Under the pieces are notes generated by a model. It had not been told where the DNA came from. It ran no database searches and saw only the letters and a program-made list of their open reading frames with translations. Shown here one piece after another: positions 31,887-62,227 of a stretch of 64,000 bases of DNA; within the stretch, counting starts at the first letter, position 1, and each line of letters starts with the position of its first letter. The position numbers and the translations under genes are program-made. Location: NCBI RefSeq assembly GCF_021390475.1, contig NZ_JAJUWS010000007.1, forward strand, positions 1 to 64,000, written 5' to 3'. Origin of the DNA: Streptomyces sp. ST2-7A (lineage in GTDB: Bacteria; Actinomycetota; Actinomycetes; Streptomycetales; Streptomycetaceae).

Positions 31887-31913
31887 GCGTCTCAGCATAC
31901 GGAAAGCGCCCCC

Positions 31914-37433: not shown

Positions 37434-37569
37434 CGGCGCCCCACCCCCTCGCCCCGCGCCCCCGGGGCACTCGATCGGTGCGGCCCGGTCCTCCGCGTCA
37501 CCGCGCTCCCCGTCACCGCCCTCCGCGACCCGGCCGCGGTTCCGACGCGGTCGGTACCCGTCGTGTACC

Positions 37570-38676
37570 TCATCCCGTCCTCGTTCCCGGCAGGTCGGCG
37601 GTGCTCGAATCCGACAGGGGAGCGAGGTCGGCCGCGACGGTGGGGCGGGACACGCGCCCCGCGCGGGCACCGAAGTCGCGGTCGAAACGGCCGCGCACCC
37701 ATCCGGTCGCGGCTCCCAGGGCTATCTGGACGTTGACCAGGAGGTGAAGGCCGACGAACAGGGGGAGGAATCCGACGCCCCGCTTGCGACGGACGAACCC
37801 GAGCAGGGCGGGGTCCGCCATGGCGAAGGCCGCCACGCCGAGCACCGGGAGCGCCAACAGTCCGGCGTGGAGTACGGCCAGGGGCGTGACGGCCACCGTG
37901 AAGAGCGCCGCCAGCATCCCGAACCCGCTGTTGGCCCGTAGCGCGCCGGGACGCCGACGATGCGCGGCGGCGAACGGAAGCAGGTACTGGGCCCGCCGGA
38001 ACTGTTCGCCCAGCATTCGGCCGAGCCGGTGCTCCTCGTCGTGGGCCGCCACGATCCGGTCGGTGAGTCGAATGGAGTATCGGGCGGAGAGGCGTTCGCT
38101 GTACTCCACGTCCTCGCTGTCGCGCAACGTCGGTTCGAACGGCCCCACTTCCTCGAACACCCGGCGGGGCAGAGCCGCCGCGGCGAAGTACGCCGTGGGG
38201 GTGGGACCGACCCCCTTGAGCCGCCAGTGGTGCGCGTGCAGTGTCCGGTACCACTCCACCGGGCCGTCGTCCACGAGTGGTTCGGCGGCGATGATGCCGT
38301 GGACACAGCCCAGCCCCGGGTCCGCGGAGAGCAACCGGACGGCGTTCTCCAGGGAGTCGGGGGACAACGCCTGGTCCGAGTCGAGGAAGAACAGGATGTC
38401 GCCCCGTGCGGCGGCGGCGCCCCTGTTGCGCGCGGCGGAGACGCCCGCGTTGCGCTCGGCCCGCAGGACGCGGCACCCGAAGCGGCGGGCCACCTCCACG
38501 GAGTCGTCGGTGCTCGCGTCATCCGAGACGATCACCTCGTACGGCCGGAGGGTCTGCGCGTCGAGGGACGCGAGGCACAGCTCCAGGGGACCCGCGTAGT
38601 TGTAGTTGGGAATCACGACGGAGACCCGGGGCAGGGAAAGGGAACCGTCCGCGGCGGGCGGGGAGTGCGCGGTCAC
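37570..38676 (-). CDS. membrane-bound GT2 family glycosyltransferase (first)
   Basis: This inverting glycosyltransferase has a GT-A fold in the N-terminal part and C-terminal helices. From GTG 38676 (GGAGGTG 5 bases upstream) it has 368 residues. VSVVIPNYNYAG, the VSDDASTDDS nucleotide-sugar segment and the DxD motif FFLDSDQA (about 110) are clear. Two or three hydrophobic helices lie near residues 255-330. It is about as long as, and similar in order to, the other GT2 in the cluster, suggesting duplication. The acceptor is likely a polyprenyl-phosphate or lipid glycan. Confidence 0.9.
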   Translation of the reverse strand: MTAHSPPAADGSLSLPRVSVVIPNYNYAGPLELCLASLDAQTLRPYEVIVSDDASTDDSVEVARRFGCRVLRAERNAGVSAARNRGAAAARGDILFFLDSDQALSPDSLENAVRLLSADPGLGCVHGIIAAEPLVDDGPVEWYRTLHAHHWRLKGVGPTPTAYFAAAALPRRVFEEVGPFEPTLRDSEDVEYSERLSARYSIRLTDRIVAAHDEEHRLGRMLGEQFRRAQYLLPFAAAHRRRPGALRANSGFGMLAALFTVAVTPLAVLHAGLLALPVLGVAAFAMADPALLGFVRRKRGVGFLPLFVGLHLLVNVQIALGAATGWVRGRFDRDFGARAGRVSRPTVAADLAPLSDSSTADLPGTRTG

Positions 38677-38698
38677 GGGGACACCTCCAGGGCGGGAT

Positions 38699-38743
38699 GC
38701 GATCGGATCGGCGCACGCCGGCGGGGCGCGCCGATCCGATCGC
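38699..38743 (-). terminator. 16-bp perfect hairpin after the aldo/keto reductase gene
   Basis: GCGATCGGATCGGCGC (38699-38714) is the exact complement of 38728-38743, with a 13-base loop. It lies between the reductase stop (38800) and the GT2 start (38676), so the GT2-deacetylase pair probably has its own promoter or relies on read-through. Confidence 0.75.
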
Positions 38744-38799
38744 ACGACCGGCCGGGCGCCGCTCGCCGGCGCGACCGGCGGACTGGTGGGACGTCGGCG

Positions 38800-39753
38800 T
38801 CAGACGGCCTCGTCGAGGGTCCGACGCAGTTCCCGGGGCAGTTCCAGGTCGGCGGCCGAGAGGCATTCGTCGAGCTGGGCGACCGAACTGACACCGATGA
38901 TCGGCACCACGGGGGGCTCGCCACCGATCAGCCAGGCCAGGACGACCTGGATCGGTGTCACCCCCAGTTCCTCGGACACCTTGGTGAGCGCCCGCAGCCG
39001 ACGCTCGGTGCCGGGGTGGTCGTAGTGCTCCGGGAGCGGCTGTCCCGGGCGGCTGTAGGCGCCCCAGAGCAGCGTGGTGTAGGCGAACATGGTGAGACGG
39101 TGGCTGTGCACGTAGTCCAGCAGTTCGTCACCGGCGTGCACGTGGCCGCCCTCGGGCAGGGTGGTGTTCGGGCGGGGCCGGAGGTAGGAGTAACGCTGCT
39201 GCACGGCGGCGTACGGGGTCCAGCCGTGCCGCTCGGCCAGGGAGCGGGTTTCCGCCAACCGCCAGGCGGCGTGATTGCTGGCGCCCAGCGTCCGGGTCCT
39301 GCCGTCGGCCACGGCCTCGTGGAACGCGGAGAGCGTCTCCTCGTCGGGGGTGACGCGGTCCTCGCGGTGCGCGTAGTAGAGGTCCAGGTGGTCCGTCCCC
39401 AACCTGCTCAGGCTCCCCTCGAGCTGGGTCCGGATGACCGTCGGCGCGAGCCCCTCCGCCCCACCGTCCGGGCCGGGGCCGGAACCCACCTTGGAGGCGA
39501 TGGTGAGCCGGTCACGGCCGCCGCGGTCCTTCAACCAGTGGCCGAGCACGCGCTCGCTCTCGCCGCCCTCGCCGCCGGGAACCCAGAACGAGTAGCAGTT
39601 CGCGGTGTCGATGGTGGTGCCGCCCGCCTCCACGAAGCGGTCCAGGATGGCGAAGGACGTCTCCTCGTCCACGGTGGTGCCGAACGGCATGGCGCCCAGA
39701 CAGAGCGCGCTGACCCGTGTGCCGGTGGCCTCGTCCAGGATTCGCTGCTGCAT
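38800..39753 (-). CDS. aldo/keto reductase
   Basis: This is a NADPH-dependent TIM-barrel reductase, related to voltage-gated potassium channel beta/YajO types. From ATG 39753 (GGAG upstream) it has 317 residues. The catalytic tetrad is visible as Asp/Tyr in TIDTANCYSFW, Lys in IASKVGS and His in YYAHRED. The C-terminal cofactor loop IIGVSSVAQLDECL is present. Its neighbours are carbohydrate genes, but 218 bases separate it from the next gene upstream and a hairpin follows, so it may only be a passenger. The substrate is unknown. Confidence 0.9.
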   Translation of the reverse strand: MQQRILDEATGTRVSALCLGAMPFGTTVDEETSFAILDRFVEAGGTTIDTANCYSFWVPGGEGGESERVLGHWLKDRGGRDRLTIASKVGSGPGPDGGAEGLAPTVIRTQLEGSLSRLGTDHLDLYYAHREDRVTPDEETLSAFHEAVADGRTRTLGASNHAAWRLAETRSLAERHGWTPYAAVQQRYSYLRPRPNTTLPEGGHVHAGDELLDYVHSHRLTMFAYTTLLWGAYSRPGQPLPEHYDHPGTERRLRALTKVSEELGVTPIQVVLAWLIGGEPPVVPIIGVSSVAQLDECLSAADLELPRELRRTLDEAV

Positions 39754-39970
39754 CGTTTCTCCGGGAGTTCTCGTGTACGGGACGGCGGTGGTGGAATCCG
39801 TCGACACCGCCGCGGACTGATGGTTGGGGACACCGTAGGAGGACCGGTGGGACGCCGGGGCCCTTCCGGGGGGATTCGGGCGCTTCGGCGCGCTCGTCCT
39901 ACGACCTACGTCGTACGTATCCGGCCACCGGCTACGACCCCTCCCGATGGGGGCGGTCGGCGCGGTGGGG

Positions 39971-41155
39971 TCATTCGGTGTCGAAGGACAGGGTGAGCGC
40001 CTGCGCCCGATGGTCGGACATGCCCCCGCTGTCCACCATCCGGTAGTCGTGGACCGTTACCGACTCGCCGGTGAACGCCCGGTCGAGCCGCCACATCCCC
40101 GGGAGGGCGGTGGGCCAGGAGACGGGATAGAGCTCGTCGGAGGCGTGCAGCGCGTCCCGCAACCGCTCGCCCAACCGTCGCACCTCACCCATGGCCGAGG
40201 TGCCGTTCAGGTCCCCCGCCACCACCACGGGCAGCCGGTTGTCGTCCAGGTCCTCCTCCAGCGCGCGGTAGGTGGCCTGCCGGCGGACCTCCTGGGCCCT
40301 CATGAAGGTGACGAATCGTGAGGAGAAGGGGTTCATCGAGATGTCGAGCTGGACCGGGATGTGAACGTTGTAGAACGTCGTCACCCGCCCGTCGATCCGC
40401 AGATCGGTGCGCAGCACCTTGTACCGGTAGTAGTCCGGGAACCTGCCGTCGGGTGGCATACCGATGGCGGGGTCGGAGAGGTGTGGCCAGCTGTCCAGCC
40501 CTCGCCAGTCGTCGATCGGGTACCGGGAGAGGGTCAGCAACTCACCGACGGCCACCACGTGGAAACCGGGAAAGTGTTCGCGGAGTTCGCCCACGTGGTC
40601 CGCGGGGATCGGGCGGTGCGCGTCGAGGTCCCAGGAGACGTGCTCCTGCAACAGGTAGACATCGGCCCGTTGCGCGCGCAGGTACGCGTAGAACTCGTCC
40701 GGGTCGTCGCCGTCGGTCCAGTACTCGGTGTTCCAGGAGAACACCCGGACCGCTTCCGGTGGTGCGTCCGGCACGCCACCGACACCCGGCAGCGCGTGGA
40801 CGTTCAGCCCCACCAGTGGCAGCCCGAGCAGCCCGCAGCACAGCGTGGCCGCCGCCAGGCGGAGCCGGGCGGTGCGCGCCAGCGGGGTGAGGAGCAGCAG
40901 GAGCAGCGGTACCACCAGGAAGACCGGGGGAGGCATCAACTCCATCGGCCTCCACCACCAGTGCCGACCGGTGAGGATCCAGAACACCGAGACGAACAGG
41001 GTCCAGGACAGGATCGCCGTGCCGAGCAACCGGGCCGCCCGTACCCGCGGTCGCGGTGGGGAGGGCTCCGGTTCGGGGGTCTCCCGCCCCACCGCGCTCC
41101 CCCCGACCGTCCCGGCCTCCACGGTTGCCCCGACCTCCCCGACACGCCCGCTCAC
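39971..41155 (-). CDS. membrane endonuclease/exonuclease/phosphatase-domain protein, VanJ-like
   Basis: The EEP fold covers nucleases and phosphodiesterases/phosphatases. From GTG 41155 (GTGA overlap with the upstream GT2 stop) it has 394 residues. Three hydrophobic helices (about 42-62, 72-92, 98-118) form a membrane anchor, followed by an EEP domain with VFSWNTEYWTD, YLLQEHV, VVAGDLNGTSA and GGMSDHRAQ. This topology matches VanJ, an extracytoplasmic teicoplanin-resistance protein of Streptomyces coelicolor thought to act on undecaprenyl-linked intermediates. In this operon a polyprenyl-phosphate substrate would be sensible. That assignment is by analogy. Confidence 0.85.
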   Translation of the reverse strand: MSGRVGEVGATVEAGTVGGSAVGRETPEPEPSPPRPRVRAARLLGTAILSWTLFVSVFWILTGRHWWWRPMELMPPPVFLVVPLLLLLLTPLARTARLRLAAATLCCGLLGLPLVGLNVHALPGVGGVPDAPPEAVRVFSWNTEYWTDGDDPDEFYAYLRAQRADVYLLQEHVSWDLDAHRPIPADHVGELREHFPGFHVVAVGELLTLSRYPIDDWRGLDSWPHLSDPAIGMPPDGRFPDYYRYKVLRTDLRIDGRVTTFYNVHIPVQLDISMNPFSSRFVTFMRAQEVRRQATYRALEEDLDDNRLPVVVAGDLNGTSAMGEVRRLGERLRDALHASDELYPVSWPTALPGMWRLDRAFTGESVTVHDYRMVDSGGMSDHRAQALTLSFDTE

Positions 41156-42228
41156 GCCGTCATCCCGGGCATCCCGGGCCTCTGCTCCGACCTCGCCACG
41201 TGCGCCTCGCGGGTGTGCTCCTCGGCGGACGACCAGGGGAAGTCGTAGAGCCGGCGGAACCGACCGGAGACCAGCCACTGCAGGGCGCCCGCCACGATGC
41301 CCGCCGAGATGGCGACGTTCGTGGCGAAGGCCACCGCGGTGAAGACCAGGAGGAAGCGTGCCCCACGCCGCTTCAGCACGTAGCGGTACATGGAGGGGTC
41401 ACCGGCGATCGAGAGCCCCACGAGTACCGTCGGCACCACCGACCAGGCGGGACCGAGCAGCACGAGCGGCAGGGTGAGGACCGCGCCGAGGGCGGCCACC
41501 GCGGCCATGGACCGGGAGGCGGTCTCGAAGCCCTTGGCGAAGCGCCGGCGACGGGCGAACAGCGGCACCCTCAGCCGGGCGCGGCGGAACAGCTTGTGCA
41601 GCAGGGACCACAGCTTCTCGTCGTCGTCGTGCCGTCCGAGCACATGCGGGCTCACCATGATCCGGTACCGCTCCGACATTCGTTCGCCGTACTCGACCTC
41701 CTCGGTCTGCCGCAGCCGCGGGTTGAACGGACCGACTTCCCGGAAGACCCGACGCGGGATCGCGGTGAGCGAGGAGAACAGGAAGCTGACGGTGCCGAGC
41801 GACTCCATCCGCCAGCAGTAGGCCTGCAGCACCCGGCACTCCTCGACCACGCTGTCCCGGATCAGCGGCTGGTCCTCGTAGATGCCGCAGACCGCGCCGT
41901 ACTCCGGGTGGGCGAGCAACTCCTCGACGGCTTTCTCCACCGCGTCGGGTCGCAGCGCCACGTCCGAGTCGACGAAGAACAGGATCTCGCCGTCGGCCGC
42001 CTCCGCACCTGTGTTGCGGGCCACGGCCACGCCGCTGTTGCGCGGGGTCCGCAGAACCGTCACATCGCGACGCCGGGCGATCTCCAGGGAGTCGTCGGTG
42101 CTGTGGTCATCGACCACGATGACCTCGAGCGGCTCGTACGTCTGCTGCAGGGCCGCGTCGATACAGAGCCCTATGGAGTTGCGGTAGTTGTAGTTGGGGA
42201 TGACGACCGACACGAGGGGTCGGGACAC
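41152..42228 (-). CDS. membrane-bound GT2 family glycosyltransferase (second)
   Basis: From GTG 42228, preceded by AGGAGG at 6 bases, it has 358 residues. VSVVIPNYNYRN, VVDDHSTDDS, DxD in FFVDSDVA and the acceptor-side ED-like motif (QTEEVEYGERM) are present. Three hydrophobic helices (about 235-300) end the protein. It resembles the GT2 encoded at 37570-38676 throughout. The stop overlaps the VanJ-like start and the UbiA gene lies 23 bases upstream, so it is within a tight operon. It likely transfers a sugar onto a membrane lipid carrier. Confidence 0.92.
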   Translation of the reverse strand: MSRPLVSVVIPNYNYRNSIGLCIDAALQQTYEPLEVIVVDDHSTDDSLEIARRRDVTVLRTPRNSGVAVARNTGAEAADGEILFFVDSDVALRPDAVEKAVEELLAHPEYGAVCGIYEDQPLIRDSVVEECRVLQAYCWRMESLGTVSFLFSSLTAIPRRVFREVGPFNPRLRQTEEVEYGERMSERYRIMVSPHVLGRHDDDEKLWSLLHKLFRRARLRVPLFARRRRFAKGFETASRSMAAVAALGAVLTLPLVLLGPAWSVVPTVLVGLSIAGDPSMYRYVLKRRGARFLLVFTAVAFATNVAISAGIVAGALQWLVSGRFRRLYDFPWSSAEEHTREAHVARSEQRPGMPGMTA

Positions 42229-42251
42229 GACGTGCCTCCTTGGGGAGATGA

Positions 42252-43241
42252 CTAGTGGTGGGCGAGGAGCGTGCCACCGAGAAGCAGCGCCCACAGCAGC
42301 GAATTGATGAGCATGGCGCGATCACGCAGCAGGATGCGGGTGGGCTCACCGCCCCGGTCGCCGTGGACTTGGAGCAGTTGCAGGTACCTGGCCATGGCGA
42401 AGAGCGCGAAGGGCGCGGAGCCGTAGACGGCCAGGTCGGCGGACCGGGTGTCGACCGCCTGCTGGAGGTGGATCAGGAAGGTGGTCACGGACACGGCGGC
42501 GCACAGCACGATCAGGTGGTCGAGGTACTGGACGGAATAGCCGCGCAGCGCCGGTCGGTGGGAGACCCCGCCCCTCTCCATCTCGTGCCTGCGTTTCCCC
42601 AGGACGAAGATCAGGCAGAGCGAGAACACCGAGACCAGCATCCAACTGCGGATCCCGGTGCCGGCGGCCAGGTGCCCCTGGACCACGCGCAGGGCGAACC
42701 CCGAGGCCACCAGGAAGACGTCCAGCAGGGGGACGTGCTTCAGGCCGGAACTGTAGGCGGCGTTGATGCAGAGATAGGCGACGATCGGCCACCACGCCGT
42801 GACGGGACCGAGGAGCGCCGCGGCCGCCAGCAGGAGCGCGAGGACGCCCCCGAAGGCGATGGCGGTCGGCACGCCGACCCGCCCCGAGGCGATCGGCCGG
42901 TCGCACTTGGTGGGGTGCATGCGGTCGCGGTCGCGGTCACGAAGGTCGTTCCAGACGTACACCAGGGACGACGCGAGGGTGAACAGCAGGATGGCCCAGG
43001 CGATGCGCACCGGCAGTCCCTCCGGCGCCGCCTCCGCGTCCAACAGGGCGAGGGGCACCACCAGCAGGTTCTTCGGTAACTGACCGGGGCGTACGAGGGC
43101 CAGGAGGTCGCGCGGCAGGCTGCGGCGCCGGTATATCGGTCCCGGGGGCGGGACGTCGGCCACCGGCCGTTCCGGTACTCGGAGCCGTGCCGGTTTCACG
43201 GGAAGTGTGGTGTCGAGGGGCTGGTCGGCACTGGTCGTCAC
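42252..43241 (-). CDS. UbiA-family prenyltransferase, decaprenyl-phosphate phosphoribosyltransferase-like
   Basis: It resembles mycobacterial DPPR synthase (Rv3806c), which joins phosphoribosyl pyrophosphate to a polyprenyl phosphate. From GTG 43241 it has 329 residues and about eight membrane helices. Shared features are NDLRDRDRDRMHPTK (98-112) continuing to RPIASG, then SGLKHVPLLD, GKRRHEME and a late EPTRILLRDR. Leu55 is encoded by TTA (43077-43079), making it a likely bldA target. It is followed by GT2 at 23 bases and preceded by the SDR gene at 14 bases. It would provide the lipid-linked pentose that the rest of the cluster modifies; product identity is inferred. Confidence 0.9.
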   Translation of the reverse strand: MTTSADQPLDTTLPVKPARLRVPERPVADVPPPGPIYRRRSLPRDLLALVRPGQLPKNLLVVPLALLDAEAAPEGLPVRIAWAILLFTLASSLVYVWNDLRDRDRDRMHPTKCDRPIASGRVGVPTAIAFGGVLALLLAAAALLGPVTAWWPIVAYLCINAAYSSGLKHVPLLDVFLVASGFALRVVQGHLAAGTGIRSWMLVSVFSLCLIFVLGKRRHEMERGGVSHRPALRGYSVQYLDHLIVLCAAVSVTTFLIHLQQAVDTRSADLAVYGSAPFALFAMARYLQLLQVHGDRGGEPTRILLRDRAMLINSLLWALLLGGTLLAHH

Positions 43242-43255
43242 GATGGTCTCCTCGG

Positions 43256-44299
43256 TCAGAAGAAGGCTTTGGCCAGTCCCAGGGCACCCTGTTTCCATGG
43301 TTCCCGGCTGGTCCGACCCGTGGATCCCGGCGCGTGGGAGGTGGCCCTGTTGTCGCGCCACCACTGGTAGGTGCCGAGGATGGCGTCACGGTTGGAGTGG
43401 CGGGGCGACCAGCCCAGCACCTCGCGCACCTTGTCGATGCTGACGTAGGAGTCCGCGCGCAGTTTGTGGATCAGCCTCCCGTAGACCGGTGACAGCCGCA
43501 GCCGGCTCAGCGCGTCCAGGGCCAGGACCGCTGGCGCGGCCGGGATGGACACCACGCGTTTGCCGTGACCCGCGGCGTCCAACACGGCCTGGAAGTCCTC
43601 TCGCAGGGTGCCGAACCGGGCGGCCGCCAGGTTGAAGGTGTCGTCGGCGATCTCCGCCGGCGCGGCGAGCGTGGCCGCGACCGCGTCGACCAGGTCCTCG
43701 ACCGCGAACATCTGGATGCGGACGTCCCCCCGGCCCAGGACCGGGAAGTTGCGACCCTCCTCGGCCCACTCGAAGAGCATGGCGAACAGGCCCATGCGGC
43801 CGGGACCGACGAACGTCTTGGGCCGCAGGATGGGGACGCACAGTCCGCCGGCCCGGAATTCCTCGGCGACCTCCTCGGCACCCGCCTTGGCCCGGCTGTA
43901 GGCGTCGACCGGTCGGCGGGGATGGTCCTCCGTGGTGGGCACGGTTTCCGGCAGTCCGTAGACCGCGGTGGAGGAGATGTGCACCGCGCGTTCCAGCCCG
44001 GCGTCCCGCGCGGCCCGCAGAACGCTCCGGGTGCCGTCGACGATGATCGAGCGGATCTCGTCCTCCGGATAGCTGGGCAGCGCCGCCGCGGTGTGCACCA
44101 CGGCGTCGGCGCCGGTCAGAGCGGCCCGCATCCGGTCCGTGTCCCGCACGTCGGCCGTCAGGTGCTCCACATCCGGTACCCGTTCCACCGGCGGGCGCAG
44201 GTCGACGCTCCGCACCCGCGTCCCCGTCGCGGCCAACGAGCGGACCAGGTTTCCGCCGAGCATGCCGCTGCCACCCGTTACCACCACTGTTCTCACCAC
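43256..44299 (-). CDS. NAD(P)-dependent extended SDR (epimerase/3-beta-HSD type)
   Basis: This is a nucleotide-sugar or lipid-sugar oxidoreductase/epimerase. From GTG 44299 it has 347 residues, with an alternative GTG at 44296. The Rossmann motif is TGGSGMLGGNL (about 8-18). The catalytic pair is Tyr134 and Lys138 in YSRAK, with ISSTAVYG supplying the Ser/Thr. A later PKTFVGPGRMG loop and C-terminal SPVYGRLIHK segment resemble 3-beta-hydroxysteroid dehydrogenase-like epimerases. It overlaps the aminotransferase stop and lies 14 bases before the UbiA gene, so it is likely to oxidise or epimerise the sugar in the same pathway. Confidence 0.9.
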   Translation of the reverse strand: MVRTVVVTGGSGMLGGNLVRSLAATGTRVRSVDLRPPVERVPDVEHLTADVRDTDRMRAALTGADAVVHTAAALPSYPEDEIRSIIVDGTRSVLRAARDAGLERAVHISSTAVYGLPETVPTTEDHPRRPVDAYSRAKAGAEEVAEEFRAGGLCVPILRPKTFVGPGRMGLFAMLFEWAEEGRNFPVLGRGDVRIQMFAVEDLVDAVAATLAAPAEIADDTFNLAAARFGTLREDFQAVLDAAGHGKRVVSIPAAPAVLALDALSRLRLSPVYGRLIHKLRADSYVSIDKVREVLGWSPRHSNRDAILGTYQWWRDNRATSHAPGSTGRTSREPWKQGALGLAKAFF

Positions 44300-45720
44300 A
44301 GCGACGACACCTTCTGTCGGACGAAACGGGTGACCAGGCGGGACAGCCCGGACGCGAGGGTTTGGTCGAGCCGCTCCAGGAAGATCTCGACCTCGGACGT
44401 GGTGGCGACCAGCGGTGGGCCGACGACGAGCGGGTTCTTGCCGTTGAGGGTGTAGTAGGCGTAGGTGTCGTGGTCGTGGTAGAGCGCGTTGATCACGGCG
44501 CAGGTGACCAGTTTGGTGCCGAACTGCGGGTCCTTCGCCAGTCCGCCCGGGGCGACCTTCGAGACGAGGTCGAGGATGCCGGGACTGCCCAGGAAGCAGC
44601 CCCATAGGGCTCCGGCGCCGCGGACGTCGGTGACGATGTCGGAGTGTTCCTTGGCGATGCGTTCGAGGCCGGGGCCGAGCACCCCCTCGATGGCCCGGGC
44701 ACGGGCCGGGAAGTCCTCCTCGACGGCGATGTTGATCGCCTCGACGGCGGTGGCGCACTCCTCGCCGAAGCCGTAGTAGGTGGTGCTGGTGCTCTGCAGC
44801 AGGGCGTCCTGGAGGTTGTCGTAGGCCTTTCGGAAGACGGGCCGGCGGGCGACATACGCGGAGATGGAGGACTTGCCGCCGCCGAAGGACTTGGACGTCG
44901 TCACCACGTCGGGGACGAGACCGGGGTGGCGCATGAAGTGGAACATCGTTCCCGTCTTGCCCCAGCCGCTGTAGATCTCGTCGAAGATGAGGATGATGTC
45001 CTCCCGGGTGCACAGGTCCCGCAGGCCGCGCAGGAACTCCTCGGAGCACCATCGGATGGTGGAGGCGCTGAACGGCTCGATGAGCAGGGCGTAGACGTCC
45101 GACCTGCCCTTGGCGTCGCGGCTCGCTTCGACGGCGGCCCTGACGGATTCCAGGTCGTCGTAGGTGAAGCCGACCACGCCGGGGATCCCGGGGAAGGCGA
45201 AGTGGTTCTGCGAGCCACCGGTGAGGCTGCCGGAGCCGAGGAGCTTGCCGTGGAAGCTGATATCGCTGCGCAGGATGGTGTTCCGCCGACCACCGTGGTA
45301 CTTGTACGCGAGCTTGACCGCGCCCTCGACGGCCTCCGCGCCCGAGTTGGGCAGGAAGGACATGTCGAGGTCCCCCGGAAGCACGGCGGCCAGGTTGTGC
45401 GACAGCGCGGCCAGGTACGGCGAGAAGTAGGTCTTGTGGACCTCCATCCGCCCGCGCTCGGCGAACTTCCTGCGTGCCTCGAGGATCCGCGGGTGGTTGT
45501 GGCCGTGGTTGAGGACCCCGACACCACCCGTGAAGTCGAGGATCCGGCGGCCGTCCCGCGTGTAGACGTAGACGCCCTCGGCCCGGTCCACGAGCTCCCG
45601 ACCGAATCCGAACGAGGTCATCAGGGAGACCTGGCTCTTGTTGACGTACCGACGGTACAGATCGTGCACTTGGTCGACGGTGAGTCTTTCGGCGTCCTCG
45701 ATGCCCATGAGCTCTGTCAT
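44293..45720 (-). CDS. class III PLP-dependent aminotransferase
   Basis: The 475 residues form a fold-type I aminotransferase. PLP-binding features are SGAEAVEGAVKLA (phosphate clamp), FDEIYSGWGKTG, and the Schiff-base lysine Lys277 in TTSKSFGGGK. The N-terminus (VDQVHDLYRRYVNKSQ) and the C-terminal part with HDHDTYAYYTLNGKNPLVV are unlike common GABA or ornithine enzymes. The gene is coupled at both ends by overlap (ATGA with the flippase-like gene, 7 bases with the SDR). In this setting it may aminate a keto-sugar or a lipid aldehyde made by the SDR. Confidence 0.92.
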   Translation of the reverse strand: MTELMGIEDAERLTVDQVHDLYRRYVNKSQVSLMTSFGFGRELVDRAEGVYVYTRDGRRILDFTGGVGVLNHGHNHPRILEARRKFAERGRMEVHKTYFSPYLAALSHNLAAVLPGDLDMSFLPNSGAEAVEGAVKLAYKYHGGRRNTILRSDISFHGKLLGSGSLTGGSQNHFAFPGIPGVVGFTYDDLESVRAAVEASRDAKGRSDVYALLIEPFSASTIRWCSEEFLRGLRDLCTREDIILIFDEIYSGWGKTGTMFHFMRHPGLVPDVVTTSKSFGGGKSSISAYVARRPVFRKAYDNLQDALLQSTSTTYYGFGEECATAVEAINIAVEEDFPARARAIEGVLGPGLERIAKEHSDIVTDVRGAGALWGCFLGSPGILDLVSKVAPGGLAKDPQFGTKLVTCAVINALYHDHDTYAYYTLNGKNPLVVGPPLVATTSEVEIFLERLDQTLASGLSRLVTRFVRQKVSSLW

Positions 45721-46769
45721 GTGGTGCTCTCCTCTCGGAAGGGTGTGGGAACAGCGGGGCGGTCCCGGAGGGCGACAACGCCCAGGGCGACGCCGGAGGT
45801 GGCGAGTTCGGCGATCAGGGTCAGGACCCGGCTGCCGAGAGCCGCGGCGACGGCGGCGTGCAACGGCAGGACCGGGGCGAGGGCGGGCACCAACAGCAGC
45901 TCGCGGACGCCGATGCCGTCGGGGGCGAACACGGCGAGGGACCCGACCACCACGGCGAGGGCGAAACCACCGATCGCCGCGGGTAGCGCGGGCAGCGGCT
46001 CGGCACCCAGCAGCACCGCGATCACCCAGACGTGCAGGCCCGAGAGCACCCAGGCGGCGGTCTGGAACACGATGGCCAGGCGCAGATTCCCCGACCGCCC
46101 GGGTGGCGGGGGCGGCTGCCGCCCGGCGACCCGGGCCGCCAGGCCCGCGAGCACGTGGATGAGGTCGGGCCGCACCACCAGGACGAGCAGCAGAGCCGGG
46201 GGAAGCAGCAGCCACACGGCGCCGTCCGCCGGCAGGGTCCGCGCGACAAGCAGACCGACCACACCACCCGTGAGCAGCACGATCACGAGGTTGACCAGGT
46301 ACGTTCCGGCCATCTGGGTCTTGGTGACCCCGGCCTGCTCGGCCATCCGCATCTGTGCGATGAGGCCCCACACGCGCCCCGGTACGAATTTGCCCAGGAA
46401 GCCGACGAAGAACATGCGGATCCCGGTGCGGGCGGGCACCGGCGCCGCGATCGCCGACAACGTCAGCAACCAGGCCCTGGTGCCGCAGAGCAGGCCGACC
46501 GCGGTGACCAGGCAGGCACCCAGCAGCGCGGCGGCCGAACCACCGTGGAGCAGCTCGGCGAGCACGGACCAGTCCTGTCCCCGCAGGGCGACGAGGACAC
46601 CGGCCACCACGGCCACCGCGAAGATCACCGTCAGGGCGCGGCGCCACGCGACAGCCGCGCCGTGTCGCGGTCGCGCGGGGGCGGTTTCGCGGCCCACGGT
46701 GCCGGCGTCGTCGCTCCCCGGGGCGGGGCCGGCGGGCGGGAGTGCCGCGTCGGGGTGTTCGGTGGTCAT
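45717..46769 (-). CDS. flippase-like membrane protein (lysylphosphatidylglycerol synthase TM / UPF0104 type)
   Basis: The 350 residues contain about eight hydrophobic helices. Hallmarks of the family are FFVGFLGKFVPGRVWGLI, the MAEQAGVTKTQMAG segment and FAPDGIGVRELLL near the end. The family covers MprF membrane domains and AglD-type proteins and is often placed with lipid-linked sugar pathways as a candidate flippase. A 45-residue polar head precedes the first helix. I chose ATG 46769 as the first likely start. It is the first gene of the minus-strand operon and stands opposite the NarL-type regulator across a 552-base gap. Confidence 0.88.
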   Translation of the reverse strand: MTTEHPDAALPPAGPAPGSDDAGTVGRETAPARPRHGAAVAWRRALTVIFAVAVVAGVLVALRGQDWSVLAELLHGGSAAALLGACLVTAVGLLCGTRAWLLTLSAIAAPVPARTGIRMFFVGFLGKFVPGRVWGLIAQMRMAEQAGVTKTQMAGTYLVNLVIVLLTGGVVGLLVARTLPADGAVWLLLPPALLLVLVVRPDLIHVLAGLAARVAGRQPPPPPGRSGNLRLAIVFQTAAWVLSGLHVWVIAVLLGAEPLPALPAAIGGFALAVVVGSLAVFAPDGIGVRELLLVPALAPVLPLHAAVAAALGSRVLTLIAELATSGVALGVVALRDRPAVPTPFREESTT

Positions 46770-47271
46770 GGGCGATCCGTGGTCATGACTGGTCCGTTTC
46801 GGTGGGGGCGGGTCGGCGGACGCGAGGGAACGGGCGGGCCACGGACACACTCGTGGCCGCCGGCCGCCGGGGGAACCGATTCACCGGCATCGTGGGCGAA
46901 AGTGCAGGAGGGGGTACGACCATGAGCGCACCGGGGTACGGCCTCCGCTACGACCGCGGGACGGAAGGTCGTAATCCGTGGCGTCGGCGGAGGGGACCCC
47001 GTTTCCGCGGTCCCCGGGCGGGCCCGGGGACCGCGCCCGTCCCCCGACCCGCTCCCGACGGTTCGTCTCCCGCGCACGGCCACCGTGTCCCCCGGCGGGC
47101 GCGGCGTGCCGGTGACTTTCCCACCACGAGTGTTCGCACCGCGTTGCTCGGGGCGCTCTGGCGAAAGGTCGGAGGGAGGGCTTACTGTGACAATCAATGA
47201 CCATGCGTTGATCCGGGAGAAATCCGCGGGGTGGATCACGCTTCCGCAACTGGGAAGAACTGTTCTGTAGG

Positions 47272-47297
47272 CCGATTTGGGAGCGCTCCCAAATCGG
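47272..47297. promoter_or_regulatory. 26-bp perfect palindrome containing the CebR-type operator TGGGAGCGCTCCCA
   Basis: The 14-mer TGGGAGCGCTCCCA occupies 47278-47291 and is extended symmetrically by CCGATT on the left and AATCGG on the right. The 14-mer is the recognised binding site of CebR, the LacI-family cello-oligosaccharide repressor of streptomycetes. It lies 25 bases before the likely regulator start. AGAACTGTTCT (47256-47266), a second palindrome, is adjacent. The remainder of the 46770-47321 gap shows no gene. Confidence 0.8.
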
Positions 47298-47321: not shown

Positions 47322-48185
47322 TTGAAGGCTCGTAGCGCACCTACCGATTCACATCCATCCACTTCCGGCGTTCACTCCCGCATCCGCGGGGAAATCGACG
47401 TTCCGGCACTTCGCGAACCGGGCCGGCACGGCGATGGGGCCGACGCCCGGGTCCGGGGCGCGGCCGAACGCGTCGTCCGTATCTGCCTCGCCGACGACCA
47501 CTCCCTCATGCGGGACGGCCTCAAGGAGGTTCTCCGCGCCGTTCCGGAGTTCGCCGTGGTGGGGGAGGCGTCGACCGGCACCGAGGCCGTGATGCTCGCG
47601 GCCCGGTTACGCCCCGACGTCCTCCTGTTGGACATCGGGATGCCCGGCCCCCGGGCCTCCGAGACGATCCGGCAGATCACCCGCGTCGCGCCGGAGACGC
47701 ATGTGCTCGTCCTGACCATGAACGACGAGCCGGAGATGGTGCACGACCTGCTCGAAGCGGGCGCGACCGGATACCTGCTGAAGTCCATCCTTCGGGAGGA
47801 GTTGATCGCCGTCATCCGGTCGGTCACCAGCCGGCCCCCGAACACCGTCGTGCTCATCGTCTCCCGGCAGACGGCGGCACGATTGAAAAGTCGGCCGACG
47901 CACCCGGTGGAACCTCTTCTGACGGAACGGGAGGCGGTGCTTCTGGGGTTGGTCGCCGAAGCCATGAGCAACGCCCAGATAGCGTCCCGGCTGTTCATCA
48001 CCGAGGCCACCGTCAAACGGCACCTCACGAACATCTACGCCAAACTCAACGCGGTGTCGCGGGTGGACGCCCTGCGCAAGGCCCGTGCCGTCGGTCTGCT
48101 CGACGCCGGGCGGAACGGCGGTCGTCCACAGCGTTATCCCTCCCTCCCGGTCGCCGACGCCGCCGTCGTCCGACCCGGCCGCTGA
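47322..48185 (+). CDS. NarL-type LuxR response regulator with a TTA codon
   Basis: This is a receiver-HTH protein. Only rare starts exist in frame. I favour TTG 47322, preceded by AAGGGGG, giving 287 residues with a 50-residue disordered head; TTG 47277 overlaps the palindrome. The receiver domain starts at VRICLADDHSLMRDG, with phosphoacceptor Asp104 (LLLDIGMPGP) and GYLLKSI. The LuxR HTH lies around 205-265 (LTEREAVLLGLVAEAMSNA, TEATVKRHLTNIYAKL). Leu96 is encoded by TTA (47607-47609), suggesting bldA-dependent translation. There is no partner kinase in the window. It is divergent from the surface-glycan operon and may control it. Confidence 0.9.
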   Translation: MKARSAPTDSHPSTSGVHSRIRGEIDVPALREPGRHGDGADARVRGAAERVVRICLADDHSLMRDGLKEVLRAVPEFAVVGEASTGTEAVMLAARLRPDVLLLDIGMPGPRASETIRQITRVAPETHVLVLTMNDEPEMVHDLLEAGATGYLLKSILREELIAVIRSVTSRPPNTVVLIVSRQTAARLKSRPTHPVEPLLTEREAVLLGLVAEAMSNAQIASRLFITEATVKRHLTNIYAKLNAVSRVDALRKARAVGLLDAGRNGGRPQRYPSLPVADAAVVRPGR

Positions 48186-50774: not shown

Positions 50775-53057
50775 ATGAGTCAGCATCGTGTGAACCGGCG
50801 ACGGCGCCGGATCGCCCTGAGCACCATGGCCGCGGCGACGGCGGCGGCCGTCACCGGAGTCGTGCTGATCCCCTCCGCCGGGGCCGCGGAGATACCGGTC
50901 GGGGAGGGCGGTTACTCCGACACCCGCCCGGCCGGCACGCAGGGCCCCACCGACAACATGGGTACCCCGGTCCTGCCGCAGGTCACCGACGCGGTCGCCG
51001 GGGAGCCGGTCCCCACCAACGACTGGTGGTCCTCGCTGGTCTTCAAGCGTTACGCGGACAACCCGTACTCCCAGCCGATGTACGGGCACCCCCTCACCTA
51101 CCAGGCCGTCGCCGAGGGCCTCCAGGTCGGCCACCCCACCAACCACGCCATCGTGGGCGAGGGCCGGCAGTACGAGTTCGTCCACACCGCCGACCTCACC
51201 CTGAGCGTCGCCGGCCTCGACTCGCCCGACGTCAAGGCCGACGGCTGGTCCGACTGGACCGTCACCCCCTACTGGGGCGACGGCGACCGCGAACTGCGCG
51301 CCACCATCGGCCACGGCCTGCCGTACGTGTACGCGGAGGCCAACGGCGGCGACGCCGAGATCATCACCAACGGCACCCCCGAGGTCTTCGCCGACGAGGG
51401 CAACGTCCTCGGCGTGACCGTCGCCGGCAACGACTACGCGCTGTTCGCCCCCACCGGCAGCGACTGGAACGTCTCCGGCACCTCGGTGACCGCCGCCCTC
51501 GGCGACAACGACTACTACTCCGTCGCCCTGCTGCCCGACCGGGACGCGCTGGGCACCTTCGAGCGGTACGCCTTCAGCTTCGTCACCGGCTCCGAGGTCT
51601 CCTGGGACTACGATCCCGCCGCCGGCGAGGTCGCCGCCACCTACACGCTTCGGACCGAGGCCCGCGAGGGCTCCGAGACCGGCGCGCTTCAAGCGCTGTA
51701 CCGCCACCAGTGGATGCACACCGACGACGCGCTGCTGGACCACGAGTACGTCTCGCCGCGCGGCGCCATGAAGCTCCGCGAGGGCAACTCCTTCACCACC
51801 ACCCAGACCGTCCCCGGCGTCCTGCCCGTGCTGCCGGAGAGCGACGGCGTCGACGAGGGTCGCCTCGGCGGCCACATCGCCGATGTCCTCGGCTCCGCCG
51901 ACCCCTTCGAGGGCGCCACCGACACCTACTGGACCGGCAAGCAGCTCGGCAAGCTCGCCCAGCTCGCCACCATCGCCGACCAGGCCGGTGACGACGCCTC
52001 CCGCGACCAACTGCTGACCCTGGTCAAGGACCGGCTCCAGGAGTGGTTCACGGTCGGCGGCGCGGCCGAGTTCTCCTACGACGCCGACTGGTCCACCCTC
52101 ACCGGGTACCCGGCGTCCTACGGCAGCGACACCGAGCTGAACGACCACCACTTCCACTACGGCTACTTCGTGATCGCCGCCGCGATCGTCGCGCAGTTCG
52201 ACCCCGAGTGGGCCGAGGAGTCCGCGTGGGGCGGCATGGTCCACGAGCTGATCCGCGACACCGCCAACCCGGCGCGAGATGACGACCGCTACCCGTTCCT
52301 GCGCGGCTTCGACATCTACGCCGGTCACAGCTGGGCCGCCGGTCACCAGGGCTTCGCCGCCGGCAACAACCAGGAGTCCTCCTCCGAGTCGATCAACCTC
52401 AGCGCCGGCCTCATCCTGTGGGGCTCGGCCACCGGTGACGACGAACTGCGTGACCTGGGCGTCTACCTGTTGACCACCGAGGCCGAGTCGATCCGCCAGT
52501 ACTGGTTCGACGCCGACCAGGAGGTCTACCCGGCGGACTACGAGCACCCGATCGTCGGCATGGTCTGGGGCTCCGGCGGCGCCTACGCCACCTGGTGGAC
52601 CGCCAACCCGGAGGAGATCCACGGCATCAACGTGCTGCCCCTGACCGGCGGTTCGCTGCACCTGGCCGCCCACCCGGAGGCCGTCAACCGCAACCTCGAC
52701 CACCTCGTCGAGCAGAACGGCGGGCCCTTCGAGGAGTGGCGCGACCTGCTGTGGCAGTTCCAGGCGCTCGTGGACCCGGAGACCGCCAAGGCCTCCTACG
52801 ACGCCGACGGTGACGCCTACGAGCCGGAGGCCGGCGCCACCCGCGCGCACACCTACCACTGGATCAACACCCTCGCCGTCGTCGGCACGCCCAACCTGGA
52901 CGTGACCGCCGACATCCCGACCGCGGCGGTCTTCGAGAAGGACGGCACGCGCACCTACACCGCGCACAACCACGCCGACGCCGAGCGCACGGTGACCTTC
53001 TCCGACGGCACCACGCTCACCGTCCCGGCCCGCTCGTCCGCCACCTCCACCGGCTGA
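50775..53057 (+). CDS. secreted GH81 endo-beta-1,3-glucanase
   Basis: This enzyme cleaves beta-1,3-glucans such as laminarin, callose or fungal wall glucan outside the cell. Of 760 residues the first about 38 are a signal peptide (basic VNRRRRRIA, hydrophobic stretch, cleavage near AGAAEI). The rest matches glycoside hydrolase 81: N-terminal beta-sandwich (TNDWWSSLVF, YGHPLTYQA) and an alpha/alpha barrel with FDIYAGHSWAAGHQGF (Asp513, His518) and NNQESSSESIN (Glu534, Glu538), which are the catalytic pair region. A beta-rich tail of about 60 residues ends it; no separate carbohydrate-binding module is evident. Promoter, twin operators and terminator all surround this single gene. Confidence 0.95.
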   Translation: MSQHRVNRRRRRIALSTMAAATAAAVTGVVLIPSAGAAEIPVGEGGYSDTRPAGTQGPTDNMGTPVLPQVTDAVAGEPVPTNDWWSSLVFKRYADNPYSQPMYGHPLTYQAVAEGLQVGHPTNHAIVGEGRQYEFVHTADLTLSVAGLDSPDVKADGWSDWTVTPYWGDGDRELRATIGHGLPYVYAEANGGDAEIITNGTPEVFADEGNVLGVTVAGNDYALFAPTGSDWNVSGTSVTAALGDNDYYSVALLPDRDALGTFERYAFSFVTGSEVSWDYDPAAGEVAATYTLRTEAREGSETGALQALYRHQWMHTDDALLDHEYVSPRGAMKLREGNSFTTTQTVPGVLPVLPESDGVDEGRLGGHIADVLGSADPFEGATDTYWTGKQLGKLAQLATIADQAGDDASRDQLLTLVKDRLQEWFTVGGAAEFSYDADWSTLTGYPASYGSDTELNDHHFHYGYFVIAAAIVAQFDPEWAEESAWGGMVHELIRDTANPARDDDRYPFLRGFDIYAGHSWAAGHQGFAAGNNQESSSESINLSAGLILWGSATGDDELRDLGVYLLTTEAESIRQYWFDADQEVYPADYEHPIVGMVWGSGGAYATWWTANPEEIHGINVLPLTGGSLHLAAHPEAVNRNLDHLVEQNGGPFEEWRDLLWQFQALVDPETAKASYDADGDAYEPEAGATRAHTYHWINTLAVVGTPNLDVTADIPTAAVFEKDGTRTYTAHNHADAERTVTFSDGTTLTVPARSSATSTG

Positions 53058-54062: not shown

Positions 54063-54791
54063 GTGCGATTGATGCTGTCCGTGACTACGACGGCGGGGGA
54101 GATTCCCTGGTCCGAGGTGCTGGCTCCGGGCCGCTCGCTCGTCTACGACGTGCTCGGTCGACAGGCTGCCGACCTTGGTGCACGCCTGCACGACACCGGC
54201 TGGGGCCCTCACCGGATGGTCCCCTTCGGGTACTCGGCCCCCGTGTTCCCCCGTGCGCCCCGCCGTCGCGGCAGTTACACGGCCGGTGGCCCCGGCACGA
54301 TCGAGATCGGCAGTCCGCTGCCGGAGGTCCTGGAGCCGCTGGCGCGCGGGCTGGCGGGTCGCGAACTGCTCGACTGGGGCGGGGTCGCGCTGCGCGTCAC
54401 CGGCCTGAAGGCGGTGGAGCCGCCGTCGTTCGACTCCGGCCGGGCCGTCTTCCGTACCGCCACGCCCGTGCTGATGAAGGGCTCGGGGCGGGACGACAGC
54501 GGCGAGCGCGTCACCCGGCAGGACTGGCTGCTGCCGGGTGATCCGGGCTGGCCGGAGTACCTGCAGCGGAACCTGGAGCGCAAGGCGGAGACGTTGGGGC
54601 TCAAGCCGGACATCCAGTTGGACTCGGTGGGCCGGATCGGCCCCAAGCGGTCGTTCTCCGTGGGGAAGGGCATGAAGCCCGGCTGCGCGGTGGAGGTCAC
54701 GCTCTCCGGTGATCCGGAGCTGCTGGCGGCTCTGTGGAGTTGGGGGCTGGGCCAGGGGAACTCCGCCGGTTTCGGATGGATCGCCGCATGA
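54063..54791 (+). CDS. cas6: CRISPR endoribonuclease Cas6
   Basis: Cas6 cuts the precursor RNA within each repeat to release crRNAs. The 242 residues start at GTG 54063 behind GGGGGGT; ATG 54072 is the alternative. Two RAMP-type halves are apparent, and the glycine-rich loop GLGQGNSAGFGWI lies at the extreme C-terminus, as in family members. His47/His50-region residues (WGPHRMVPFGY) may serve catalysis. It is the first gene of the operon, overlapping cas8 by 4 bases. Length and order fit type I-B of the Tneap variety. Confidence 0.9.
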   Translation: MRLMLSVTTTAGEIPWSEVLAPGRSLVYDVLGRQAADLGARLHDTGWGPHRMVPFGYSAPVFPRAPRRRGSYTAGGPGTIEIGSPLPEVLEPLARGLAGRELLDWGGVALRVTGLKAVEPPSFDSGRAVFRTATPVLMKGSGRDDSGERVTRQDWLLPGDPGWPEYLQRNLERKAETLGLKPDIQLDSVGRIGPKRSFSVGKGMKPGCAVEVTLSGDPELLAALWSWGLGQGNSAGFGWIAA

Positions 54792-56278
54792 GCCACACCG
54801 AATCGCACACCACGGAGGTTGCCCCGGACGCGGCCGAGCAGTACCGCCTGACGCTCACCCCGCATCCGCTCCAGCGGATCGGCGCGTACGCGCTGGCGGC
54901 GCTGGTGGAGTCCACCCCCGCCGAACTCACCCCCGACGACTTCCGTGCCGCCGTGGAGCGGATGACCGGTGACGCCGTCCGCGCCTCCGTCCGGGAGAGC
55001 AAGGCGCCGGACGGGTTCTGGCAGAAGGCCAGCCTCTCGTTCTTCCCCAACGCCCCGATGAATCACCCCGGTCGGTACAAGGGGAAGAACGAGGAGGGCG
55101 AACCGAAGACCGCCCGGGACGTACAGGAGGCCACCCGTCGCTGGCTCTCCCTGCCGGACCCGGCGACCTGGCCGGGCGCCGACTGCGCGCTCTGCGGGCG
55201 TCGGGCCATCGGGTGGTACGGCAAGCAGGACATGCCGTTGGCGGAGAGCCAGGCGTACCGCAACACCACGCCGCGCGGGCACGAGGGCACCGCGTTGTGC
55301 CACCCCTGCCTGTGCAGTTTCCACGCCCTGCCGTACGGCAGTCAGCTGACCGGCGGCACCTCCACCGCGCTGCACAGCTGGGACGAGAGGTTCACCGCGT
55401 ACACGGTCGGCCGGCGTGCCGCCCTCAACACGGGCGTCGCGGCGACCGGGGCCGCCCCGGGGAAGGAGCACACGCGCGAGGTCGTGGCGCTGAGGGCCCT
55501 GCGCGGTTACGCCGAGCCGCTGCGGGCCGGGGTGGATCTGCTGGTCTTCAACAACAACAACCGTGGCCAGGTGCTGGAGCGCCACCACCTGGACCAGCCG
55601 CTGGCGGAGTGGTTGAGCGGTCGGCACGCGGCGGGCCCGGGTTTCCGCGTCCTGGTGCGCGCCCACGCCACCGCCCGTACCTCCGGTTACGTCGTGCTCG
55701 GCCGCAACGCCTTCCGTGCCCCGGAACGCATCCTCGGCGCCTCCGCCCGTTGGCTGTTGCGCGCCGCCGCCGTGCCGGAGCTGCGCGAGGACCGCCGGCT
55801 GCTGTCGGCGCTGTTGAGAACGTTCGCTGAAAAGGTGATGCAGGTGCAGGAGAAGGACCTGGACGAGATCCGGGCGGTCGCCCGCAAGCTCGCGTACCAG
55901 CTGGGCAAGGAGGAGAGCTGGTCGGGGCTGAAACAACTGCGCAGGTATTCGCGGGAGCCCGCCGGTCTGCGGCGTTGGCTGACCAACCAGGGCATCAAGT
56001 GGGCCTGTCTCGACCCCGGGCTTCCCGAGAACGGCGTCAAGAAGGAACTCGAAGGCCCTCTGGTGAGCGAGCGGGCCTACCTCCTGCTGCTCGACCCGTC
56101 GCCGAACTCCCGGGCCTGGCTGCACCGGGACCTGCTCCTGGTCGGCGTGCTGGAGGAGTTGGACCGGCTCGGTTGGCACCTGAAGGGGGACCGGGCGCAG
56201 GAGGCCATGAAGGAACTCCACCGGGACACGAACGACGAGGACAACGAGCTGCTGTCGGATGAGGAGGGGGAGCGATGA
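54788..56278 (+). CDS. cas8b1: type I-B Cascade large subunit Cas8b1 (Cst1 type)
   Basis: Cas8 recognises the PAM and seeds target unwinding in Cascade. From ATG 54788, overlapping the cas6 stop, it has 496 residues. A four-cysteine zinc-binding site (Cys133/Cys136 in CALC and Cys171/Cys174 in CHPC) is the mark of the Cst1/Cas8b group. NNNNRGQVLERHHLDQPL and SARWLLRAAAVPEL lie in the middle, and the last 120 residues are helical. Large subunits diverge fast, so the family call also rests on position between cas6 and cas7. Confidence 0.85.
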   Translation: MSHTESHTTEVAPDAAEQYRLTLTPHPLQRIGAYALAALVESTPAELTPDDFRAAVERMTGDAVRASVRESKAPDGFWQKASLSFFPNAPMNHPGRYKGKNEEGEPKTARDVQEATRRWLSLPDPATWPGADCALCGRRAIGWYGKQDMPLAESQAYRNTTPRGHEGTALCHPCLCSFHALPYGSQLTGGTSTALHSWDERFTAYTVGRRAALNTGVAATGAAPGKEHTREVVALRALRGYAEPLRAGVDLLVFNNNNRGQVLERHHLDQPLAEWLSGRHAAGPGFRVLVRAHATARTSGYVVLGRNAFRAPERILGASARWLLRAAAVPELREDRRLLSALLRTFAEKVMQVQEKDLDEIRAVARKLAYQLGKEESWSGLKQLRRYSREPAGLRRWLTNQGIKWACLDPGLPENGVKKELEGPLVSERAYLLLLDPSPNSRAWLHRDLLLVGVLEELDRLGWHLKGDRAQEAMKELHRDTNDEDNELLSDEEGER

Positions 56279-60975: not shown

Positions 60976-60976
60976 G

Positions 60977-61957: not shown

Positions 61958-61963
61958 GCCCCG

Positions 61964-62227
61964 ATGCACGTGGTCGTCGTCTACGACACGGACGCCAAAC
62001 GCAACGCCCGCATCCTCCGCACCTGCCGCAAGTACCTGCACCACGTGCAGCGCAGCGTCTTCGAGGGACAACTCAGCCAGGCACAACTCCGCCTCTTCCG
62101 CGCGGAGGTCGAATCGGTCCTGGACCTGTCGTACGACAACGTCCTCGTCTACACCTTCCCGCCGGGAACCACCCCGGTGCGCATGGAGTGGGGAGCGGTC
62201 CGGGCAATGCCGACGGACGTACTCTGA
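61964..62227 (+). CDS. cas2: CRISPR adaptation protein Cas2
   Basis: Cas2 bridges two Cas1 dimers during spacer integration. The 87 residues begin MHVVVVYDTDAKRNARI with the conserved Asp8, then CRKYLHHVQRSVFEGQLS, and a ferredoxin-like ending. The length is standard. It is the last gene of the operon, 112 bases before the first repeat. Confidence 0.95.
   Translation: MHVVVVYDTDAKRNARILRTCRKYLHHVQRSVFEGQLSQAQLRLFRAEVESVLDLSYDNVLVYTFPPGTTPVRMEWGAVRAMPTDVL

Follow-up and report, generated by a model that had tools for sequence, protein, structure and literature searches.

In cellulolytic Streptomyces (SirexAA-E, S. griseus and S. scabies), the CebR/CelR regulon is controlled by a LacI-type repressor, CebR, which acts through a 14-bp box; repression through this box, lifted by cellobiose, has been established in species other than the one described here (PMC4890002, PMC4898821). 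The number of genes predicted to be under CebR control is 18, 19, 19 and 30 in four cellulolytic strains, and 8 and 6 in two strains of low activity (PMC4898821). Besides its role in cellulose use, CebR is known to control a toxin in S. scabies; it does so through TxtR, a pathway-specific regulator that is encoded inside the thaxtomin biosynthetic cluster and is itself controlled by CebR (PMC4890002, PMC8914351, PMC12527672). A further described system, the NarL/LuxR-type two-component pairs of actinobacteria, combines a HisKA_3/HATPase kinase with a NarL-type response regulator.

In this study, a 64,000-nucleotide stretch of DNA of Streptomyces sp. ST2-7A (referred to below as the window) was analysed together with the whole genome of this strain and with related genomes. 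ST2-7A resembles the cellulolytic strains named above in having the same exact 14-bp box, a CebR-type LacI repressor, the same cebR-cebEFG-bglC locus, and boxes at GH48, GH6, GH9 and LPMO genes; its 17 exact sites compare with 18 CebR sites in S. scabiei and 19 in S. acidiscabies (PMC4898821). Unlike in the published regulon, one of its boxes also lies, to judge from sequence comparison, at a response regulator gene beside a glycan-type cluster. Set against the thaxtomin system, a NarL-type response regulator stands in for TxtR and a glycan-type cluster for the phytotoxin cluster, and the box is perfect and placed at -44, whereas the txt boxes of S. scabies are imperfect and lie at about -786/-900 or inside txtB. 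The relatives of ST2-7A share with the NarL/LuxR-type pairs both the kinase-regulator arrangement and an inverted-repeat operator candidate; unlike these pairs, the ST2-7A regulator has no kinase and appears to have been placed under a sugar repressor. We infer that cascades of the CebR-TxtR type may include one in which a response regulator without its kinase stands beside a glycan cluster. The titles and abstract openings found describe no CebR-controlled two-component regulator or glycan cluster, and the main text of PMC4898821, the supplementary site table of which may list such a case, contains none of the terms two-component, response regulator, exopolysaccharide and glycosyltransferase. 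The reading that we consider likely is that the box at 47278-47291 is the CebR operator of the regulator gene and that the regulator in turn acts on the glycan cluster (Table 1).

Table 1. Features of the box, regulator and glycan cluster region. Coordinates are those of the window; percentages are identities to the counterparts in the related genomes G133 and G225.
Feature	Coordinates	Strand	Remarks
Polysaccharide deacetylase	36723-37670 (start approximate)	-	PF01522
Second GT2 glycosyltransferase	37570-38745	-	PF00535
Aldo/keto reductase	38800-39807	-	PF00248
TACGAC-CTAC-GTCGTA, second candidate operator upstream of the aldo/keto reductase gene	39900-39915	.	Perfect inverted repeat
Endonuclease/exonuclease/phosphatase family protein	39971-41278	-	PF03372
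GT2 glycosyltransferase	41152-42294	-	PF00535
UbiA-family prenyltransferase	42252-43364 (start approximate)	-	PF01040
NAD-dependent epimerase/dehydratase	43256-44299 (start about 44299)	-	PF01370 (residues 498-718 of the 840-aa ORF 43256-45778, the first half of which is out of frame); 86% G133, 88% G225
Class-III aminotransferase	44293-45720 (likely ATG 45720)	-	PF00202; 88% G133, 90% G225
LPG_synthase_TM-family membrane protein, first cluster gene	45717-46769	-	PF03706; 71% G133, 68% G225
Imperfect inverted repeat TACGACCATGAGCGCA, candidate regulator operator upstream of the glycan operon	46915-46930	+	Conserved gap block
Perfect 26-bp palindrome containing the CebR box	47272-47297	.	Outer 6-bp arms absent in G133 and G225
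CebR box TGGGAGCGCTCCCA	47278-47291	.	Exact match to the published 14-bp consensus (PMC5332605, PMC4898821)
NarL/LuxR-type response regulator, orphan	47322-48185	+	Response_reg and GerE; TTG start inferred

The genome of ST2-7A (G000; 6,179,375 bases in 90 contigs) was scanned for the 14-mer, as the first-pass annotation of the window had proposed. Exact copies of TGGGAGCGCTCCCA were found at 17 places, against 0.087 expected from base composition; with up to one mismatch there were 22 places, and a single place matched a reversed control pattern. A Pfam scan of the nearest flanking genes, rather than of every flanking ORF, placed at least 11 of the 17 exact boxes at plant-polysaccharide genes. 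The boxes lie at: (i) GH6 (L016), GH6-CBM2 (L007), GH9 (L009 and L013) and GH10 (L004) genes and a divergent pair of GH48 and GH6 genes (L010), (ii) LPMO10 (L006) and LPMO10-CBM2 (L012) genes, (iii) a GDSL-CBM2 gene (L001), (iv) not counted among the 11, a gene for a ricin-B-lectin protein whose GH30 match is sub-threshold (L002), (v) genes for GHL10 and BNR/Sortilin-type proteins (L014), (vi) the LacI/SBP (cebE) gap of the cebEFG-bglC locus (L011), (vii) an ABC transporter gene pair (L003), (viii) a DoxX-like ORF (L008), (ix) the gap between the regulator and the glycan cluster (L005) and (x) two places with no clear gene among those scanned (L015 and L017). For five boxes (L003, L005, L008, L015 and L017), the genes scanned included no obvious neighbour for polysaccharide degradation, and the four of these outside the window are further candidate non-cellulase CebR targets.

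At L011, the exact box (C28:56844) is located between a LacI gene (L011:351-1463) and the SBP gene, the LacI gene being divergent to genes for the SBP, two permeases and a GH1 enzyme. This order matches the published cebR-cebEFG-bglC arrangement (PMC4890002), and a one-mismatch box is found at the bglC-type GH1 gene (L020:5001); a CebR box at S. scabies bglC is likewise listed in a table of PMC5332605. The best solved relative of the LacI protein is 5ysz_A (E 1e-105), which we take to be CelR of Thermobifida fusca. Since the genome combines a LacI-cebEFG-bglC locus that carries the box, boxes at polysaccharide genes and the match to 5ysz_A, a CebR and its regulon are predicted to be present in ST2-7A. 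The first-pass annotation had named the lack of a CebR homologue as grounds for giving up its reading; a CebR-like LacI gene with the same box does stand at the cebEFG-bglC locus. A second CRISPR system (Cse1, Cas3; L102:1-4564 on contig C28) adjoins this locus.

Within the window, the exact 14-mer is present in a single copy. Two matches were found there at up to two mismatches, against 0.70 expected, and at least two occurred in 17 of 100 shuffles, so that the window by itself is not decisive for the CebR box. The earlier description of the site agrees with the letters: CCGATTTGGGAGCGCTCCCAAATCGG is identical to its own reverse complement over 26 bp, it contains the exact consensus 14-mer, it lies in the divergent gap between the NarL-type regulator and the glycan operon, and no cellulase or ceb gene adjoins it within the window. 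The 26-bp palindrome is second in length among the perfect palindromes of the window to one of 50 bp (31913-31962), a G+C-rich sequence between predicted genes that is perhaps a terminator.

The length of the palindrome, given in the heading of the first-pass annotation, proved not to be conserved. Perfect symmetry spans 16 bp at the orthologous site of G133 and 14 bp at that of G225, and 14-20 bp at the remaining 16 exact CebR sites of the ST2-7A genome. The whole 26-bp palindrome was rejected as a functional unit because its outer arms vary between genomes and are not conserved in the relatives. In an alignment of the gap with those of G225 and G133, the CebR box is the best-conserved 14-column window, with 14 of 14 columns invariant. 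It is extremely improbable that the feature is mainly an RNA hairpin of a 5' UTR, or the site of a LacI-family protein other than CebR. The palindrome would, as RNA, form a hairpin of 12 bp (z -2.19; a fold as good in 3 of 200 shuffles), and the genome has 19 LacI-type HTH matches; against this, the 14-mer is invariant while the arms vary, and it is the published CebR consensus that also occupies the gap between cebR and cebE of this strain.

The distribution of the regulator was studied in several genome samples. At E <= 1e-30, a first search of the genus had matches in all 199 genomes, NarL-type paralogues being common, and thresholds of 1e-58 and 1e-62 were then used. At E <= 1e-58, orthologues were found in 4 of the 392 genomes of the genus sample (ST2-7A itself, G113, G133 and G225). 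A class sample and a family sample gave 2 of 394 genomes each (ST2-7A and G133), and the relatives of G225 gave 2 of 199 (G225 and G113), these three samples overlapping the genus sample. In G133 and G225 the orthologue follows a HisKA_3/HATPase kinase gene, and an exact box is located upstream of the inferred kinase start, at -49 and -44, respectively. In the window, where this kinase gene is absent, the exact box is found at -44 of the regulator itself, counted from a TTG at 47322, a start inferred from the likeness of the leaders (the longest frame opens at 47277, within the palindrome). This distance is in the range published for CebR sites, which lie at -13 to -311 from the start of most S. 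scabies genes (Table 1 of PMC5332605). A box within a given 100 bp is expected by chance at about 1e-4 per genome. Between G133 and the window, the leader that follows the box is similar (AGGGGGATTTACCGTTG, AGGGGGACCCACTGTTG); that of G225 resembles them less.

Among the genomes sampled, ST2-7A, G133 and G225 alone share the arrangement of box, regulator and cluster, and the link of the box to the regulator and the glycan cluster, which the first-pass annotation had drawn from the window, is kept in both relatives. On the other side of the pair from the cluster, G133 carries a second exact box at 7 kb from the first one, flanked by an SBP gene and by a LacI gene whose product is 69% identical to the CebR of ST2-7A; two permease genes, a GH1 gene and a one-mismatch box follow in the direction of the kinase-regulator pair, so this pair is adjoined in G133 by a predicted cellobiose-uptake locus. 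On the G113 contig (C344; L069 / L100), pieces of GT2, aminotransferase and kinase genes abut and no CebR box was found, an arrangement that may be either a real deletion or an assembly fault.

A scan of named genomes yielded 27 regulator loci, six of which are close (60-66% identity) and all six from Micromonosporaceae. None of the 27 has an exact box. Kinase and regulator genes are adjacent in each of the six, none of which has a box at 0-2 mismatches; matches at three mismatches occur in three of them (L041, L042 and L046). The one in Actinoplanes (L046:4868-4881), some 0.15 kb ahead of the kinase gene, is still palindrome-like (CGGGAGCGTTCCCG) and may be a chance match or a diverged site. 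That Actinoplanes genome contains 12 exact CebR boxes elsewhere and none at 0-2 mismatches at its orthologue.

No cognate histidine kinase gene is adjacent to the regulator in the window, and the ST2-7A genome has no orthologue of the kinase, the best matches being other kinases at 1.3e-15. A tblastn search of the window revealed no kinase remnant (best E 0.14), and local nucleotide alignments of the kinase genes with the stretch after the box gave scores no higher than those of shuffles. The regulator has an N-terminal extension of about 50 residues, which perhaps, as a weak suggestion, is what is left of the start of the lost kinase; its kinase-remnant scores were equalled or exceeded in 10 and 94 of 1000 shuffles. 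Since no kinase orthologue is found in the genome while an exact box stands at -44, the kinase gene appears to have been lost in the ST2-7A lineage and the box to have stayed, with the regulator as the survivor of a kinase-regulator pair.

The hallmark residues of receiver domains are the acidic residues, Asp, Thr and Lys. The receiver residues and the HTH of the regulator are conserved from Micromonospora to the window, and its divergence from the three relatives (dN 0.18-0.23, dS 0.61-0.77) is comparable to that between G133 and G225 (0.18/0.55). These values point to an intact gene under purifying selection. They speak, as do the still perfect box and the retention of the candidate operators described below, against the rather improbable reading that the box is a relic and the orphan regulator has been without function since the loss of the kinase; in favour of the latter are the missing kinase orthologue and the kinase-regulator pair of G113, which is broken as well. 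A functional kinase-less regulator could receive its phosphate from a different kinase or from a small donor, or could act by its abundance.

The genes opposite the regulator form a cluster of nine (Table 1), which is divergent to the regulator or kinase-regulator operon in the window, G133 and G225. Its description as a surface glycan cluster, which stems from the first-pass annotation, is a reading of the gene families, and a glycan is its presumed product. The UbiA-family protein is nearest, among curated models, to decaprenyl-phosphate phosphoribosyltransferase NF008978 (173 bits, below the cut-off of 207). G225 has counterparts of all nine genes (66-81% identity, and higher for the aminotransferase and the epimerase), and G133 has counterparts of seven (64-81%, again with the exception of these two), the G133 stretch compared ending before the place of the last two. 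The G133 gene nearest the gap encodes a GT2 protein (54%).

Homologues of the UbiA protein (E <= 1e-45) were detected in 36 of 382 genus genomes. Beyond the window, 76% identity is reached solely in G133 and G225, and the remaining homologues show at most 56%. Stretches from 20 of the 33 further genomes (L161-L180) were compared, and the same core gene set (GT2, LPG_synthase_TM, aminotransferase, epimerase, UbiA, GT2, endonuclease/exonuclease/phosphatase family and reductase genes) was found in 19, the twentieth being cut by a contig end; the aminotransferases of the 19 diverged clusters are 71-75% identical to that of the window. A box at 0-1 mismatch is missing from all 20 (one contains a site with 2 mismatches), as is a kinase gene at E <= 1e-15, and in one a regulator of 40% identity is encoded about 3 kb beyond the reductase gene. 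The three genomes that are informative here thus combine the box, the regulator and this type of cluster.

The box had been described as facing both the regulator and the glycan operon. The two do share the gap; the place of the box is fixed relative to one side, at -44 or -49 of the regulator or kinase-regulator operon. Because it keeps this place, the box probably acts on the regulator gene and reaches the glycan operon indirectly. Direct control of both divergent transcripts by CebR at the box is very improbable. The gap is common to both, and a published CebR site lies as far off as -786 relative to txtR and about -900 relative to txtA (PMC12527672, PMC5332605), but the distance to the start of the minus-strand glycan operon is 428-509 bp (longest frame from 46850; likely ATG at 46769) as against 44 to the regulator, boxes at 0-1 mismatch are missing from the diverged clusters, and the gap has a conserved block of its own between the box and the glycan start.

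This block includes TACGACCATGAGCG at 46915 (TACGACC...), the best non-overlapping window after the CebR box in the three-way gap alignment (12 of 14 columns). It belongs to an inverted repeat, TACGAC-N4-GTCGTA, from the perfect form of which the copy at 46915-46930 departs by 3 mismatches; its counterparts are at L111:10641 and L099:9304. The exact pattern TACGACNNNNGTCGTA is found once in the 6.18-Mb genome, at 39900-39915, and once in G133, at the corresponding place; in both genomes this is upstream of the cluster's reductase gene, and 0.10 copies are expected per genome. G225, G113 and six genomes of the genus that carry diverged clusters (G187, G203, G346, G115, G094 and G287) have no copy, and 389 kb of diverged clusters contained no copy at 0-1 mismatch and four at 2. 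Perfect repeats are present between the GT2 and kinase genes in L043, L044 and L045, and upstream of the gene preceding the kinase gene in L046; one mismatch was found in L041, in G225 and in the G133 gap, and two in L042. In each of two Micromonospora genomes (G1068 and G1070) a perfect copy adjoins a different kinase-regulator pair, and an Actinoplanes genome (G1069) has one elsewhere. A reversed control of TACGACNNNNGTCGTA occurred once each in G287 and G1068, and the counts are partly post hoc because the pattern was defined after the first part of the data had been seen. A further pattern, TACGACCWTGRKCGYA, was discarded, its matches at up to one mismatch being weakly above control (1 against 1 in the ST2-7A genome).

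TACGAC-N4-GTCGTA is a likely operator of the regulator. We regard as unlikely another explanation, namely that CebR controls the regulator gene alone, that the regulator has no action on the glycan cluster and that their proximity is inherited synteny. Such an explanation would fit the box being held at a fixed distance from the kinase or regulator start and not from the glycan operon some 0.5 kb away, the lack of an adjacent kinase-regulator pair in 20 of 20 diverged clusters, and the imperfect repeat at 46915. It fits less well with the UbiA proteins of 76% identity being confined, besides the window, to genomes in which regulator and box occur together, with the unique TACGACNNNNGTCGTA of the genome lying inside the glycan cluster, and with five Micromonospora loci that also link a kinase-regulator pair to GT2 and LPG_synthase_TM genes.

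In the reading that we prefer, a CebR operator for the regulator gene and a regulator acting on the cluster, CebR would, without cello-oligosaccharides, be bound 44 nt upstream of the start codon and hold down transcription of the regulator. Cellobiose would release CebR, the regulator would be made, and it would then act on the divergent polyprenyl/glycan cluster via the TACGAC-N4-GTCGTA-like sites at 46915-46930 and 39900-39915. The first step, control of the regulator by CebR, is well supported by the exact box, the CebR-type gene, the regulon context, the box position, the synteny and the missing kinase, all seen at sequence level; binding of CebR to the box, with repression as its sign, is presumed by analogy with other species. 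The second step, control of the cluster by the regulator, is an inference, with the conserved second motif as a candidate site. The conserved site suggests that plant-sugar sensing may also control a glycan pathway, which would be wired to cellulose through a second regulator as CebR is wired to thaxtomin through TxtR in S. scabies. More tentatively, and with our opinion close to evenly divided, a two-component regulator of a polyprenyl-linked glycan cluster, shared with Micromonospora, may have come under CebR in a few Streptomyces-like species and its kinase then been lost in ST2-7A, with intracellular cellobiose, through CebR, replacing the kinase signal.

If this is true, sensing of plant polymers is an input to envelope or glycan biosynthesis, and the locus is a natural case of a two-component regulator that exchanged a kinase for a metabolite-sensing repressor as its input, of which the intact and the kinase-less states both exist in sequenced relatives. 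Cellobiose would also be a condition that may switch an uncharacterised cluster family.

The first-pass annotation had further cited a beta-1,3-glucanase encoded in the window. This GH81-type gene (50775-53057) is not evidence for the proposed control because it has no nearby box, the nearest being that at the regulator, 3.5 kb away, and because the genes predicted in the G133 and G225 stretches (L099, L111) include no counterpart of it. Beyond it, the window contains a type I CRISPR-Cas operon (54063-62227) with genes for Cas6, a DevR/Csa2-like protein (below cut-off), Cas3, Cas4, Cas1 and Cas2.
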